Shown here: positions 10,285 to 63,318 of the stretch, one piece after another | How the letters are laid out: each line of letters begins with the position of its first letter | How positions within the stretch are numbered: position 1 is the stretch's first letter | Assembly: GCF_000013205.1 (NCBI RefSeq) | Contig: NC_007775.1 | Location: forward strand, 2,439,001-2,503,000 | Reading direction: 5' to 3' | Source of the DNA: Synechococcus sp. JA-3-3Ab | GTDB taxonomy: Bacteria > Cyanobacteriota > Cyanobacteriia > Thermostichales > Thermostichaceae | DNA: 64,000 bases | Position numbers and translations under genes: made by a program | Notes under the pieces: model-generated | Databases searched by the model: none | What the model was told of the DNA's origin: nothing | What the model saw: only the letters and a program-made list of their open reading frames with translations

Positions 10285-10971
10285 TCAAGAGCAGGCTTGG
10301 GAACCCCCCTCACCTCCCAAAACCGGCCAGCCCACCAAGCCCTGGCGGAGACTCTGATGGCAGGCACGCACCTCTTCAAGGGTAAACAGGCGGCGAAAGG
10401 GGATCCCCATTTCGCGGTAACGGGCCTCTGCCCCTTCCAGTCGATCCACCAAAGCCAGGATCCCTTCTGCCCGATAGCCCGCTGCCCGCACCCGCTCGAC
10501 AGCCTTGAGAGCCGAGCCGCCGGTGGTCACCACATCCTCCAAGATCCAAACCCGGCTGCCCGCCGGCAACTCCGGCCCCTCGATCCAGGCCTGGGTGCCA
10601 TGTCCCTTAGGCTCTTTGCGGACAATCAGGGCCGCCAGGTTGGCCGGCTCAGCCTGCAGAGAGGCCAAACTCACCGCTGTGACCAAGGGATCCGCCCCCA
10701 AGGTCATGCCGGCAACTGCCTCGGTCTCAGGGGGCAGTAGCCGATGCAGCAGGGATCCCACCAGGTAGGCTCCCTGGGGGTGGAGGGTAACCGGCTTGCA
10801 GTTGATGTAGTAAGTGCTTTGCTGCCCAGACGTGAGGGTAAAGGATCCCTCGCGGTAGGCCAGTTGGGCCAGCAAATACAGCAATTTCTCCCGCGCCTCA
10901 GCCGAGGAAAGACCTAAGGGAGAACAGTCTAGGAGCAACACAGCAGGGATCCCCATCAGCTCAACCGTCAA
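10285..10971 (-). CDS. pyrE: Orotate phosphoribosyltransferase
   Basis: A 228-residue enzyme converting orotate and PRPP to OMP in pyrimidine synthesis. The PRPP-binding loop reads VWILEDVVTTGGSAL, preceded by LIVRKEPKGHGT with the catalytic Lys. About 20 residues precede the conserved core, so a start some codons later is possible. The C-terminus (GGEGGSQACS) is unusually loose. No operon partner is seen. The upstream side holds the structured repeat at 11015. Confidence 0.94.
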   Translation of the reverse strand: MTVELMGIPAVLLLDCSPLGLSSAEAREKLLYLLAQLAYREGSFTLTSGQQSTYYINCKPVTLHPQGAYLVGSLLHRLLPPETEAVAGMTLGADPLVTAVSLASLQAEPANLAALIVRKEPKGHGTQAWIEGPELPAGSRVWILEDVVTTGGSALKAVERVRAAGYRAEGILALVDRLEGAEARYREMGIPFRRLFTLEEVRACHQSLRQGLVGWPVLGGEGGSQACS

Positions 10972-11014
10972 CCCATAGATGCGGCAATAACTAACCTGGA
11001 GGAACTTCAGTCCG

Positions 11015-11110
11015 AAGTAAGCAGAACTTTGAGGTTATGCCTCAAAGGACTGTCTAGGGGCGTCTTGACAGCGCCTTTACGAGTCCATTTTGGGCTGCGT
11101 AAGAATCCCC
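11015..11110 (+). ncRNA. Solo structured repeat, copy A (TnpB right-end / omega-RNA-like)
   Basis: It is about 70% identical by eye to 59882-59786 on the other strand. Three hairpins follow each other: 11027-11034 with 11040-11047 (perfect 8 bp), 11056-11062 with 11072-11078, and 11082-11086 with 11092-11096. The copies differ by paired changes in the last two stems. It ends GCGTAAGAATCCCC, a form I associate with right ends of cyanobacterial IS605-type tnpB elements. No matching tnpB precedes it; pyrE does. It lies directly outside the IS607 left end. Confidence 0.6.
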
Positions 11111-11192
11111 TGGGTGGGAGCATGACTCTAGTCAATGATACGCTGGACTATACTGAAAATAATGTACAGTATGTTCAGTATGGCTGCCTGGC

Positions 11193-11786
11193 ATGGCTAG
11201 GTATGTAAAACCGAGAGAAGCAGCAGCTTATTTTGGGGTGTGTCTCCACACCCTCAGACGGTGGGAACAGAAAGGCTGGATTAAGGCAATACGCACACCA
11301 TCTGGTAGAGCGAGAAGGTATGACCTCGACAGTTACGTCAGAACACCCAGAAAGGATAAACGAGTTGTTTTGTACGCCCGAGTCAGCAGTCGAGGGCAGA
11401 AACCAGACTTGGAGAGACAGATTGCAAGACTGGTTAACCTCTATCCTGGAGCCGAAGTGGTCGGAGAGGTTGGCGGCGGTCTCGACTTCAAAAGACCAAA
11501 GTTCCTTGCCTTATTGGAACGAGTCCGTGCAGGAGATATCGGAACAATTGTGGTCGCTCACCGGGATCGACTCTGCCGGTTTGGATTTGAGTTCGTTGAG
11601 TGGTACTGCCGTCAATACGGGTGCGAAGTCTTGGTTCTCGATGACGATCACCTTTCTCCCCAACAGGAACTGGTTGAGGATATCCTCACCATCCTGCACT
11701 GCTTCAGTAGTCGGCTCTACGGACTCAGGAAATATCGGGCTGCAATCGAGAAAGATACGGATTTATCCGGAGCCAGCGCTGGCTAA
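11193..11786 (+). CDS. tnpA: IS607-type serine recombinase (TnpA)
   Basis: A 197-residue transposase. Residues 1-50 form a MerR-like helix-turn-helix (VKPREAAAYFGVCLHTLRRWEQKG). The catalytic domain opens VLYARVSSRGQKPDLERQ, with the nucleophile at Ser65 (or Ser66), and continues with VVAHRDRLCRFGFEFVEW, the resolvase arginine motif. This small HTH-first architecture is specific to IS607 recombinases. The ATG at 11193 is the only good start. The 3' end overlaps the tnpB frame by about 47 bp. Confidence 0.93.
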   Translation: MARYVKPREAAAYFGVCLHTLRRWEQKGWIKAIRTPSGRARRYDLDSYVRTPRKDKRVVLYARVSSRGQKPDLERQIARLVNLYPGAEVVGEVGGGLDFKRPKFLALLERVRAGDIGTIVVAHRDRLCRFGFEFVEWYCRQYGCEVLVLDDDHLSPQQELVEDILTILHCFSSRLYGLRKYRAAIEKDTDLSGASAG

Positions 11787-12921
11787 GGTTTGGAAGCAGT
11801 GGCAAGCGGCGTGCCGGTACTGCTACAATCAAGCGATTGCCTATCAGCGTCAGCATGGTGCCCCAAAAACGGCCAGAAAGCTGCGGGACATCATCCTGCG
11901 CTCCGACCTGCCCGGGTGGGTGAAGGACGCCCCCTGCCACATCAAGCAGAACGCGGTCGTCGAGGCGTGGTTGGCGTTTCGCCGAAGCAAAGACGCGAGG
12001 TTTCGCAGTGTGCGGGACAGGTCGCATACGCTGCAATTCAACGCCGGCAACTTTCGCAATGGGACGTGGTATCCGAAACTCACCCGAGGTTTGGCGTTCC
12101 GTGCATCCGAGGAGATGCCCAGAGAATGGGCACGTGGAACTGAGCTAATGCGGGTGAAAGACAGATGGTATGCCATCTTTCCTGAGCCCGTGAACGAGCA
12201 GTGTTCGTTAGCAAAGGGGGTGATCGCACTTGATCCTGGAGTAAGAAGCTTCCTTACAGGGTTTGATGGGGCGGGCTTTGTAGATATCGCCAAGGGGGAC
12301 TTTGGCAGGATCGTTCGGCTGTGCTACCACCTAGACGATCTGCAATCTAGGCTGAGTAAAGCACCGCGACCCAAGCGTAGGCGAATGCGGCAAGCGGCGT
12401 TTCGTCTGCGGGAGAGAATCAGGAACTTGGTGGACGAGTGCCATCGCAAGGTAGCGGCGTTCCTAACGGATAACTACCGATTGATATTCCTCCCCACTTT
12501 CGAGTCAGCCAAGATGGTTGCCAAGGCAGGGAGGAAGTTTGGTAGCAAGACAGCAAGGGCGATGCTCACCTGGGCGCACTACCGGTTCAAGCAGCTCCTG
12601 AAGTTTCAAGCCAAGAAGAAAAACGTGGTTGTCGTGGAAGTATCGGAAGCGTACACCAGCAAAACCTGTACCAAGTGCGGGCACATCCACACCAAGTTGG
12701 GTGGCGCAAAGGTGTTTAGATGCCCAAAGTGCAACCACAGACTACCACGAGATTGGCAAGGCGCCCTGGGTGTTATGCTCAGGGCTTTGCGGGATACCGC
12801 CTTTCTGTTTGGACTCCGTCCGAGTAGCGCGGTCGCGTCAGCATCGCGTAGTGACAACGGAAACGGACAGAATGCTATCGCTTCACCGCTGAGCAGTAAT
12901 GCTCAGCAGTGTTCAGCGTAA
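11740..12921 (+). CDS. tnpB: TnpB RNA-guided nuclease of the IS607 element
   Basis: About 393 residues from the point where TnpB homology begins (SRKIRIYPEP). No ATG is present; CTG at 11740 or frameshifting from tnpA are possible entry points, and the frame is open far upstream. The RuvC-like triad is intact: Asp165 (ALDPGVRSF), Glu255 (LPTFES) and Asp338 (RDWQGA). The zinc finger uses Cys310, 313, 328 and 331. Related TnpBs cut DNA guided by an RNA from the element's 3' end. The last codons encode an 8-bp hairpin. Confidence 0.9.
   Translation: MQSRKIRIYPEPALAKVWKQWQAACRYCYNQAIAYQRQHGAPKTARKLRDIILRSDLPGWVKDAPCHIKQNAVVEAWLAFRRSKDARFRSVRDRSHTLQFNAGNFRNGTWYPKLTRGLAFRASEEMPREWARGTELMRVKDRWYAIFPEPVNEQCSLAKGVIALDPGVRSFLTGFDGAGFVDIAKGDFGRIVRLCYHLDDLQSRLSKAPRPKRRRMRQAAFRLRERIRNLVDECHRKVAAFLTDNYRLIFLPTFESAKMVAKAGRKFGSKTARAMLTWAHYRFKQLLKFQAKKKNVVVVEVSEAYTSKTCTKCGHIHTKLGGAKVFRCPKCNHRLPRDWQGALGVMLRALRDTAFLFGLRPSSAVASASRSDNGNGQNAIASPLSSNAQQCSA
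12888..12907 (+). other. 8-bp hairpin in the last codons of tnpB
   Basis: GCTGAGCA and TGCTCAGC pair perfectly around a GTAA tetraloop; stop TAA is at 12919-12921. This is where the guide-RNA scaffold of TnpB elements is usually encoded, so the hairpin may be part of that RNA. Confidence 0.5.
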
Positions 12922-12932
12922 ATGTATCAGTG

Positions 12933-13448
12933 TCAATAGGACAAGCGATGGTGCGGCTCTGCCACCACCGCGGCCTCCGACTCCTCCGACAAGTGGGCAA
13001 TCAGCCGATCCACCAGCTGCGACAGGGTTGCCCGTTCTTCTAAGCTGAGACAGCCGTAGGTCTGCTCCCGCAACTCCCAAATGAGAGGGGGCAAAATTTC
13101 TTTCAACTTCTCTCCGGCAGGGGTGAGGTAAACCCGCCAGATCCGCCGATCCTTGGGATCCCGCTGCCGCCGGATCAGCTCCCGTTTCTCCATGCCGTCC
13201 AAGACACCGGTCATGGTACCCCCCAACTGCTGCAGGCGCTCGCAGATAGTGGAGGTGGGGATCCCGTCTTCTTCCCAGAGGCAGCAAAGCACCACCCAGT
13301 GGGAAGCGGTCAGGCCGAAGGGCTCCAGGTAGGCCTGAAATTTCCGCCGCACCAATTGCGACAACAGCCGAAGGCGATAGCCTAGGGAATAAGGGGCCAG
13401 AATCTCGCGCCATCGCTCCAGGAAGGCTTGTTTCTCCAACTGAGCCAT
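12933..13448 (-). CDS. MarR-family transcriptional regulator
   Basis: A 171-residue winged-helix repressor. The DNA-binding region reads LTASHWVVLCCLWEEDG, then the recognition helix CERLQQLGGTMTGVLDGMEKRELI and the wing RQRDPKDRRIWRVYLT. The ligand is unknown. The stop codon lies within the presumed right end of the IS607 element, so the last residues may be altered by the insertion. Four TTACA half-sites lie about 100 bp upstream of the start (13545-13582). Confidence 0.9.
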   Translation of the reverse strand: MAQLEKQAFLERWREILAPYSLGYRLRLLSQLVRRKFQAYLEPFGLTASHWVVLCCLWEEDGIPTSTICERLQQLGGTMTGVLDGMEKRELIRRQRDPKDRRIWRVYLTPAGEKLKEILPPLIWELREQTYGCLSLEERATLSQLVDRLIAHLSEESEAAVVAEPHHRLSY

Positions 13449-40182: not shown

Positions 40183-40381
40183 TTCGCCGGATCCAAATCT
40201 GTTCAGACTCCCACTCATGCCAAAGGAAAACCGGCGGCGAAAGAAGGGATCCCATCCCCAGTCAACCTTCGACACTCCCCCTGCCGACCGGCTGGTTAAA
40301 CGCCAAGGCAACGGCATAGCTGTTTCCCCGGAGCGCTGGGGACTCTGCGCAGTTCCCCAGCTCATCAGCCCAGAGCTCTGC

Positions 40382-40419
40382 CCGCACCAAAGTACGGGGC
40401 TACCAAGCTATCCCTCTGT
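40382..40419 (-). repeat. 38-bp repeat with a terminal-type hairpin, copy 1
   Basis: Matches 60054-60091 with 3 differences in 38. It contains an imperfect hairpin CCGCAC-CAAA-GTACGG. Read on the minus strand (CCGTACTTTGGTGCGG) it looks like the right-end hairpin of IS605-type tnpB elements. No transposase frame is attached; it lies 40 bp upstream of the JAMM gene. Confidence 0.6.
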
Positions 40420-40463
40420 GTCAAAATGAAAGAACGGTAACTCCATCGGCAAAGGTGAGATTC

Positions 40464-51775: not shown

Positions 51776-52777
51776 ATGCAGCCCAGTTCTTCTCGGATCC
51801 TAGGTTGGCTAGTGGTTTTGGCCCTGCTGAGCGCTGCCTGTGGTGGGCCGGAGCCACCCCCGGCCAGGGATCCCGAGGCTCCTTCCGCACCCATCTCCAC
51901 CCCCCAGTTGATCTACGAAGACATCACCCTCACCCAGGCCAAACCCGATGGTGGCCTGCTCTGGCGCCTCCAGGCTCGCCTGGCCGAATACGAGTCCCCC
52001 CCAGAAAATGGCACCACTCCCGTGCAGTTGGGATCCGCCCATTTGCAGTCTATCGAGGGAGAGTTTTTCGACGCAGAGGATCGCGCCATTCGCGTCCGGG
52101 CCGAGCGGGGATCCGCCTACCCCGGCGAGCGGCGGCTGGAACTGACGGGCCAGGTGGAGGTGGAATCGGAGCGGGACAACCTGCGCCTGCAGGCAGAGCG
52201 GCTGCAGTGGTTGCCGGAACAGCGCCTCCTCGAAGCCGAGGGCCAGGTGCAGGTGGAGCTGTTGGACGGCCGGGGATCTCTGGAGGGGGATCGCTTGCGC
52301 ATCGACTTTGGCCAAGCCCAGATGCAACTGGAGAATCGGGATCCGAGCCAACCGGTGCGGGCCAAGTATCGGGATCCGGAGCTGGAGCTGGCCGCCCGCC
52401 GTTTCTTGTGGGAATTTGGCGCCGGCGAGGTGCAGGCGCTGGGAGCAGTCGAGGTGGATGCCCCCCAGCAAAGGGTGCGCCTCAGCGGCGAGCAGTTGCG
52501 GGCTCCGCTGCCCCTAACCGAGCTGCGCCTGCTGGGCAACGTGAAAGCCAAAGCCGTTCGCGTTGGCGGGACGGAGTCCCTGCAAACCGGCCAAGAGTTG
52601 CAGGCCCAAGAGATCCGCTGGCGCATCGGCTCCACCCAACTGCAGGCCCTGGGCAATGTGCGCTACCGCCAGCCCGGACAAGCCCTGACCGTGAGCGGCG
52701 ACAGCGGCATCCTAGACTGGCAGGCCAACACCGCCCGGATCCAGGGCAACAGCCAAACCCAGCTCACTTTGCCCTAG
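51776..52777 (+). CDS. LptC/OstA-like lipoprotein (LPS export)
   Basis: A 333-residue exported protein with a lipobox-like LLSAAC (Cys22) and an LptC-type beta-jellyroll (QLIYEDITLTQAKPDGGLLWRLQARLAEYE, then repeated strands such as VEVESERDNLRLQAERLQW and RGSLEGDRLRIDFGQAQM). It probably passes LPS from LptF/G to the LptA-like protein at 25.6 kb. Lipid anchoring in place of a helix is unusual for LptC. It is separated from the other lpt genes by about 20 kb. Confidence 0.82.
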   Translation: MQPSSSRILGWLVVLALLSAACGGPEPPPARDPEAPSAPISTPQLIYEDITLTQAKPDGGLLWRLQARLAEYESPPENGTTPVQLGSAHLQSIEGEFFDAEDRAIRVRAERGSAYPGERRLELTGQVEVESERDNLRLQAERLQWLPEQRLLEAEGQVQVELLDGRGSLEGDRLRIDFGQAQMQLENRDPSQPVRAKYRDPELELAARRFLWEFGAGEVQALGAVEVDAPQQRVRLSGEQLRAPLPLTELRLLGNVKAKAVRVGGTESLQTGQELQAQEIRWRIGSTQLQALGNVRYRQPGQALTVSGDSGILDWQANTARIQGNSQTQLTLP

Positions 52778-59589: not shown

Positions 59590-59785
59590 CGCAGAGGATC
59601 CCACTAGGGCACGTTGCTGAAGCTATTATCGCCTGTATCTCCACCCTGGCACACCCTGCGCTCCCCTTCCAAAATCCATTAGATTGGAGTTTCAGCGTGG
59701 GATCTCTCACTGCCAACTTTTCCCTCTCTGGGGGACGTTATACAGCCGAGCCTGACCCCGTCTTGACACTTCCCCGACTAAGGGG

Positions 59786-59882
59786 GGGGATTCTTACGCA
59801 GTTCAAAAACGAACTTGTAAAGGCGTTGCCAAACCGCCTCTAGACAGTTCTTTCAGTCAAAGCCCCAAGGTTCTGCTTACTT
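59786..59882 (-). ncRNA. Solo structured repeat, copy B (TnpB right-end / omega-RNA-like)
   Basis: Reverse-strand relative of 11015-11110. It keeps the second stem (AGAGGCG with CGCCTTT) and the third (AGTTC with GAACT) with base changes that preserve pairing; the first stem is weaker. It ends GCGTAAGAATCCCCCC and is followed by CTTAGTCGGGGAAGTGTCAA, a terminal-hairpin pattern. A short coding tail (59857-59985) runs into it. This sits in the gap 59590-60107, which otherwise has no gene. Confidence 0.6.
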
Positions 59883-59985
59883 GTCTGATCGCGTCAGCGG
59901 GACGGAGTCCTTGCAGGTTGGCCGAGAGGTTGGCATCTCGCAGACGCTTGCCACCGGTCGGGTTTTTCACCGTGATTAGAGGCTC
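59857..59985 (-). pseudogene. Residual C-terminal coding tail, probably of a transposon protein
   Basis: The minus-strand frame reads GEPLITVKNPTGGKRLRDAN, then LSANLQGLRPADAIRQVSRT and LGL before a TGA at 59857. It has protein-like composition, no start and runs into structured repeat B. Copy A also keeps the VSRT codons. By context it is the leftover end of a tnpB-like gene; I cannot assign it by homology. Confidence 0.45.
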
Positions 59986-60053
59986 GCCTGGGAACGGTAC
60001 GCCTCGTCTACACTATTGGCAAGCAACTAAAGCTGCTTACGGGCTTTTCCGCT

Positions 60054-60091
60054 CCGCACTAAAGTACGGGGCTAGCAAGCTATCCTTCTGT
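60054..60091 (-). repeat. 38-bp repeat with a terminal-type hairpin, copy 2
   Basis: 35 of 38 bases match 40382-40419. On the minus strand it reads GCTAGCCCCGTACTTTAGTG then CGG, an imperfect hairpin resembling an IS605-type right end. It ends 16 bp before the ATG of the small four-cysteine gene. Confidence 0.6.
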
Positions 60092-60107
60092 ATTGCTGGT
60101 GTCCTGT

Positions 60108-62431: not shown

Positions 62432-63318
62432 ACGGGATCCCCTTGCAGCCGCTGCTGGATGCTCAACGCCAATTTTTGCCCTAGGAACTCCGGCAGGGTT
62501 GGAGTTGCATCCGGCCCCAGCAAGTAGAAAATGAAGCGCGTCTGCTTGCGGCGGAGCATCAGATTGAGGTGAACAACGGTCAACTCCTCCTGCGCCAGAG
62601 CGGTCATCACCCGGTAAAACACGCCCGGCTGGTTGTCCACATCCACCAACAGCGTGGGCAGATGAAACACCGGGTCAAAATAAAAAGAAACCTGGGTGTC
62701 TTTCAAGCCGGCCTTGAGATCAAACTCCAGCGCCAAGGTTTCGTGAACGGGAAACACCCCCGCCAAGCACTCGTGAATAGCCCGTTCTAGGTTGAGCTTG
62801 GTCTGGGCAGAAAGGCTGTGGCCATCGCGCGAGACGGTGACGCGGATAAACACCAAGTGCGGTGAGTAGATCTGCCCGTAAAGGTGGATGCCGTGCACCG
62901 AGAGATTGAAAGCGGTGAGCACCCCAAACAGGTCGCTGAGCAGAGAAGGGCGGTTGCGATAGGCCAGACAAACCACCGTCTTGCTGCGCTCGTCCCGCAT
63001 CTGTACCACGGCCTTGCGGGTTTGGTAGAGGGCATAGGCCAAGCGCAGATTTTGAGCCTGCACCTCGCTGCTGACGAACTGGCTATAAAAAGGCGGAAAG
63101 CTGCGGTTAAAGCGCTGCATGAGAGCCGTTCGCGCCAGCGGGACGGAGTGCTTGCGAGTGCTGACTGCGAGCGGCTGGGGATCCTCGTGGCCAGCCCTTT
63201 CCCCTCTGGCAAGAGGAGCCACCTTCGGCTGCTGCGCTGACTGCTCGGTTGACATCGACTTTGCCGCCTGCATTGCTTCCTCTCCATCGTTACTCAGCAT
63301 GCCCCGGCCAAACCTCAT
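62428..63318 (-). CDS. ACT-domain protein
   Basis: Up to 296 residues, with two ACT-type regulatory modules (about 112-185, [34 protein letters not shown]; and 222-285, [33 protein letters not shown]). There is no catalytic domain, so it is probably an amino-acid-sensing regulator, as in GlnD-like C-termini. The start is uncertain: the first 66 residues are low complexity and cross a dispersed repeat (63124-63160), so the ATG at 63120 (230 residues) may be the real start. Confidence 0.78.

Follow-up and report, generated by a model that had tools for sequence, protein, structure and literature searches.

The 97-nt structured motif that an earlier note had placed between pyrE and an IS607 element is very probably the right-end remnant of an IS200/IS605-family transposon that carries an omega-RNA-type scaffold. 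Its sequence corresponds, in frame, to the last ~30 codons of tnpB, which end in VSRTLGLCLKELSRGALTTPLRVLLWTA and have their stop TAA inside GCGTAAGAATCCCC. The true right end of the element lies past the boundary drawn in the earlier note and comprises GAATCCCC, a hairpin and then GGGAGTGTCAA. The motif had been described as solo, in one copy (copy A) compared with another (copy B) elsewhere in the window, by which we mean the whole 64,000-nt stretch analysed. A DNA search with copy A yielded 38 matches in its own genome (2,932,766 bp, one contig). The covariance-model search proposed in the earlier note, with a model built from 20 distinct copies, A and B among them, identified 46 matches in the 2.93-Mb genome, including both main window copies, and more in relatives; these further copies show that the motif is not solo.

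One copy in the genome is autonomous (L016/L088, 1,810 bp, hereafter the parent) and carries divergent tnpA and tnpB genes. Its TnpA is a 134-aa Y1 (HUH) transposase (L088 2723-3127, NF033573, 130 bits) that matches IS608 and other solved IS200/IS605-type transposases in the PDB with E about 1e-23. Its TnpB has 416 aa from the ATG (NF040570, 168 bits), and the final residues, VSRTLGLCLKELSRGALTTPLRVLLWTA up to the stop, are encoded by the scaffold. The tnpB stop falls at element position 1777, and the scaffold occupies 1689-1810, overlapping the right end as well as the 3' end of tnpB. The same modelled scaffold terminates a second, independent intact TnpB of 426 aa (L166), which comes from a different cyanobacterial family. 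The resemblance to IS605-type tnpB right ends bearing an omega-RNA scaffold, which had been suggested together with a comparison to full tnpB elements, is thus borne out: the motif is the scaffold and tnpB coding end of the parent, and the scaffold forms the tnpB 3' end in both L088 and L166. A phmmer search of the parent TnpB against PDB sequences gave no match. In the parent TnpB (L088 1422-2801, minus strand) the stretch that separates the presumed RuvC-II motif from the presumed RuvC-III motif (YSSQASFLDGDELP...NADANAAANL) is free of cysteines, and the usual zinc finger thus seems to be missing. The whole genome contains 78 TnpB-domain and 19 Y1 transposase matches.

The ends of the parent are subterminal hairpins rather than inverted repeats, with the palindrome GCCCCGCACTTGAGTGCGGGGC at the left and the right-end hairpin at the other side. 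Left ends mostly begin with ACACA, which may belong to the target or to the element. Empty sites were sought in relatives with the joined flanks of L003 and L012, and none was found, the flanks not having been kept together. The L012 flanks map to distant places in the related genomes G003 and G004, which suggests a rearrangement at that insertion.

Seventeen copies in the genome have left and right ends and no intact gene, and span 136-342 bp. Nine are A-type elements of 259-282 bp (L006, with a damaged left end, among them), seven are B-type or L020-like elements of 276-342 bp, copy B included, and the shortest measures 136 bp. With both ends, no transposase and several near-identical copies at different sites, the family has the features of miniature elements. 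Compared with the parent, the short elements keep positions 1-73, usually 1689-1810 and, in many, part of 1514-1605, the rest being deleted. The remaining family copies are 0.6-1.3 kb long with broken genes, and the relative G003 has short copies of its own, of about 250-284 bp. Since deletions extend into the scaffold in L011, L015, L034 and L036, the scaffold is not strictly required for copy survival. Short elements usually keep the GGTGAAAAACCC block, around which frame continuity is lost. A possible extra helix around this block gave better duplex energies than mononucleotide shuffles did in many of the copies (z ranging from about -4 to near 0), with cross-lineage controls that are not clean. 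The flanks that follow TGTCAA differ from copy to copy, as a guide would.

Just inside the left end, some copies carry TGNTATA(G/A/C)T or a close variant, which resembles an extended -10 element (L002-L004, L011, L020, L034, L035, L139 and the parent, where it overlaps the 3' codons of tnpA). Three G003 copies (L142, L143 and L144) have insertions of ~26 nt (TTTCGCGGCAGCGGGCCGTAGGCC) in the part of the scaffold that links stem 3 to the terminal hairpin, and L144 has a further insertion inside stem 1 that resembles the 24-nt repeat GGACTCCGTCCCGCTGACGCGATC.

Copy A is a broken relic and no working mobile element by itself, because its left end is absent and its right terminus is split by an IS607-family element (Table 1). 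Of the ~280-bp A-type element it lacks the left 134 bp and begins only at position 135, and its homology runs from 10981 to 11120 and again over 12931-12936, past the IS607. The terminus reads GGGAG, then IS607, then TGTCAA, with GGGTGGGAG at 11112-11120, and joining the flanks across the IS607 gives back GGGTGGGAGTGTCAA, the right end of the family. In all compared IS607 copies AG precedes the left end CATGACTC and AG succeeds ATGTATC at the right end; the match of these AG borders identifies the insertion borders at 11121 and 12930. The IS607 previously listed as a neighbour is therefore present, and it sits inside the terminus of copy A. Its TnpB has a DPG motif (IALDPGVRSFL), and cyanobacterial IS607 TnpBs with a similar DPG motif have been proposed as ancestors of Fanzor (PMC10711439). 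Many near-identical copies of this IS607 appear to exist in the genome. The structured 97-nt stretch is real, and its coordinates were incomplete at copy A as well as at copy B, which belongs to a 331-bp element. Likewise, the proposal of an orphan scaffold or a non-autonomous element holds for the family, where tnpB-less short elements exist and intact tnpA and tnpB lie elsewhere, and not for the immobile copy A.

Table 1. Window coordinates of copies A, B and C, the inserted IS607 and the adjoining gene
Feature	Position	Strand	Remarks
pyrE-like phosphoribosyltransferase ORF	10285..10971	-	PF00156, 24.7 bits, under the 26.3 cut-off; name pyrE taken from the earlier note
Copy A, left-truncated short (A-type) IS200/IS605 element	10981..11120	+	right end interrupted at GGGTGGGAG
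Copy A omega-RNA-like scaffold, three stems, into right-end stub	11015..11120	+	
Copy A stem-loop 1	11021..11053	+	GCAG..CTTTGAGGT/GCCTCAAAG..CTGT
Copy A stem-loop 2	11059..11075	+	GGCG/CGCC
Copy A stem-loop 3	11077..11102	+	includes AGTCC/GGGCT
IS607-family element within right terminus of copy A	11121..12930	+	
IS607 TnpA, serine recombinase with MerR-like HTH	11193..11786	+	NF033518, 193.5 bits
562-aa open frame containing IS607 TnpB	11233..12921	+	NF040570, 133 bits
TGTCAA, displaced last six bases of copy A right end	12931..12936	+	
Copy C, third, strongly decayed short element	40268..40421	-	left end present; right end GGGGGAGTGTCGAA
Copy B, complete 331-bp short IS200/IS605 element	59763..60093	-	both ends, no intact gene
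Copy B scaffold and right-end hairpin	59763..59882	-	covariance model E 1e-30, partly by construction
Copy B left end	60020..60093	-	ATACAGAAGGATAGCTTGCTAGCCCCG...; inner border approximate

The positions and strands given earlier for copies A and B were confirmed by sequence and by the covariance model. The model scores of the two (for copy A, 11015-11126, plus strand, E 2e-32, the final six bases being IS607 already) are partly by construction, as both helped to build the model; copy B was also found by the plain, model-free DNA search with copy A. The tnpB stop-codon motif GCGTAA of copy A lies at about 11097-11102, where the tnpB frame is shifted. The fold of copy A is better than those of shuffles (z -3.3, with 1 in 200 shuffles equally good), and its scaffold is nearly unaltered from the consensus of its own subfamily, with one pair changed and its pairing kept. 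Copy B, by the same comparison with its own consensus, has eight of nine altered pairs broken, with stems 1 and 4 decayed, and folds no better than shuffles (z +0.4) because of the decay of stem 1. Its flanks, sought in relatives, are separated there and not adjoining. Copy C has a barely recognisable scaffold (model match at 40269-40387, minus strand, E 0.014) beside a recognisable left end. The 24-nt repeat GGACTCCGTCCCGCTGACGCGATC lies inside copy B at 59887-59910 and elsewhere in the window at 52556-52579 and 63128-63151 (all on the minus strand). It is absent from the corresponding spot in the relatives L021 and L034, and has very many matches in related genomes, including head-to-tail copies at G002:C2:625153-625319.

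The substitutions reported between copies A and B are correct: in stem 3 a C-G and a T-G pair each become T-A, and in stem 2 a G-T pair becomes A-T. The selection on RNA structure that had been read from these changes is poorly supported by two copies taken by themselves; the family-wide count, by comparison, supports selection on the fold. Aligning 20 copies from the genome gave 94% paired cells and a covariation score of 0.160; shuffles scored 0.140+/-0.007, with 1 of 500 as high. When relatives were added, two-sided changes occurred in 20 of 36 pairs (9.5+/-1.8 in shuffles, none as high), and the short elements alone gave 12 such pairs (5.6+/-1.6 in shuffles); both counts are supportive and not proof, because both alignments, having been fitted to the model, lean to its structure, and the copies are related. 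Comparison of four subfamily consensuses left 42 of 44 altered pairs still paired, where about 0.38 would be expected at random, in a fitted alignment in which the 44 pairs are non-independent, six pairwise comparisons sharing four consensuses, and in which a consensus of related paired sequences tends towards pairing. Within groups, pair changes of a copy relative to its own consensus kept pairing in 5/12 cases for A, 12/31 for B, 7/15 for the parent group and 15/19 for G003. This pattern fits lineages that kept the fold while they spread, single copies probably decaying after insertion.

We propose that in the parent the last tnpB codons, the 3' UTR and the terminal hairpin would form an omega-RNA (reRNA) scaffold, to which flanking host DNA would supply the guide. 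Internal deletions produced the short elements (about 260-340 bp), each with a left end, usually GGTGAAAAACCC, a scaffold and a right end. TnpA in trans would have moved them, and a TnpB encoded at another place may have used their transcripts as guide RNAs; such a TnpB could cut the vacated donor site, which would lead to the short element being copied back. Copy A no longer takes part in this presumed cycle, having lost its left end and received IS607 in its terminus. From the sequence evidence, use of short-element RNA as a guide by TnpB in trans is plausible, if short of probable. We hold with similar reserve that the short elements may be guide-RNA-only transposons, with their own scaffold and a site-derived guide, dependent on one parental TnpB and one TnpA, and that the RNA fold would have been selected for the spread of gene-less elements. 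The main doubt about a guide role in trans is timing: pairing may have been kept while the ancestors still carried tnpB.

A serious competitor, which we stop short of calling probable, is plain decay, in which deletion left the short elements and solo ends behind as remnants that play no part as RNA. The scaffold would then be present through its overlap with tnpB codons and with the right end that TnpA needs, and the covariation would come from tnpB-bearing ancestors. Consistent with such decay, subfamilies A, B and P keep pairing in 24 of 58 pair changes, near the ~0.38 random expectation, part of the scaffold is lost in some elements, and copy B is mostly broken. However, nine A-type copies and the G003 short copies spread without intact tnpB and with the scaffold kept, the within-group changes of G003 keep pairing at a higher rate (15/19), and the GGTGAAAAACCC block is retained by short elements despite the lost frame continuity around it.

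The paired changes might instead stem from constraint on something other than RNA, either the protein sequence of TnpB or the DNA hairpins that TnpA reads. The region is coding in the parent, the C to T change in GTC/GTT is synonymous, and the ends of IS200/IS605 elements are established to function as folded single-stranded DNA. We nevertheless consider this unlikely, given that the partner change in copy B, G to A, introduces a TGA stop into the tnpB frame, that stem 3 is frameshifted in A-type copies, and that short elements without intact tnpB show covariation away from the terminal hairpin, in stems 1 and 3. Copy A could also still act locally, as a part of the pyrE 5' region or as a guide RNA whose target is set by IS607 sequence. 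The probable pyrE ATG lies at about 10956, ~25 bp away from the left edge of copy A, so that the relic may overlap the pyrE promoter or leader, and the nearly consensus scaffold would suit such a role. Yet copy A has neither the left end nor the promoter-like region, and the last six bases of its scaffold are replaced by IS607, which makes a local function very improbable.

Guide RNAs are an established feature of tnpB right ends, and miniature internal-deletion elements have been described from thermophilic Synechococcus. In ISDra2 the 3' end of tnpB and the transposon right end give rise to a ~150-nt reRNA (PMC8612924), an arrangement like that of the scaffold described here, with flanking DNA as the potential guide; the Synechococcus miniature elements are cited in a passage of PMC10969869. 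The parent resembles IS200/IS605 TnpB systems such as ISDra2 in its one TnpA/TnpB pair; unlike in ISDra2, most copies here have no intact tnpB alongside. The scaffold sequence and fold match no relevant Rfam family at the gathering threshold, and at E<=1 there was one chance match. Stand-alone omega-RNAs acting in trans have been reported for IscB systems, in which the scaffold likewise lies apart from the nuclease gene; here, in contrast, it resides inside a short transposon with both ends and has a TnpB-type parent. Gene-less internal-deletion derivatives in many copies, like those described here, were reportedly found by Nelson, Bhaya and Heidelberg in 2012, in what is very probably this strain or a sister of it. 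ISSoc2, the source of the cited miniature elements, is presumably an IS607-type element, whereas the present elements come from an IS200/IS605 parent and keep a guide-RNA scaffold. Our search of the literature, incomplete in coverage, found no paper on miniature elements that keep a guide scaffold.

Even without a function in trans, the nature of the 97-nt motif is settled. If the short elements do use TnpB in trans, the retention role proposed for this nuclease would reach gene-less elements too, and it would become easier to understand how many short copies are sustained by a single autonomous one. A natural set is available in this genome: one parent, 17 short elements whose flanks, and hence potential guides, differ, and decaying relics as controls.
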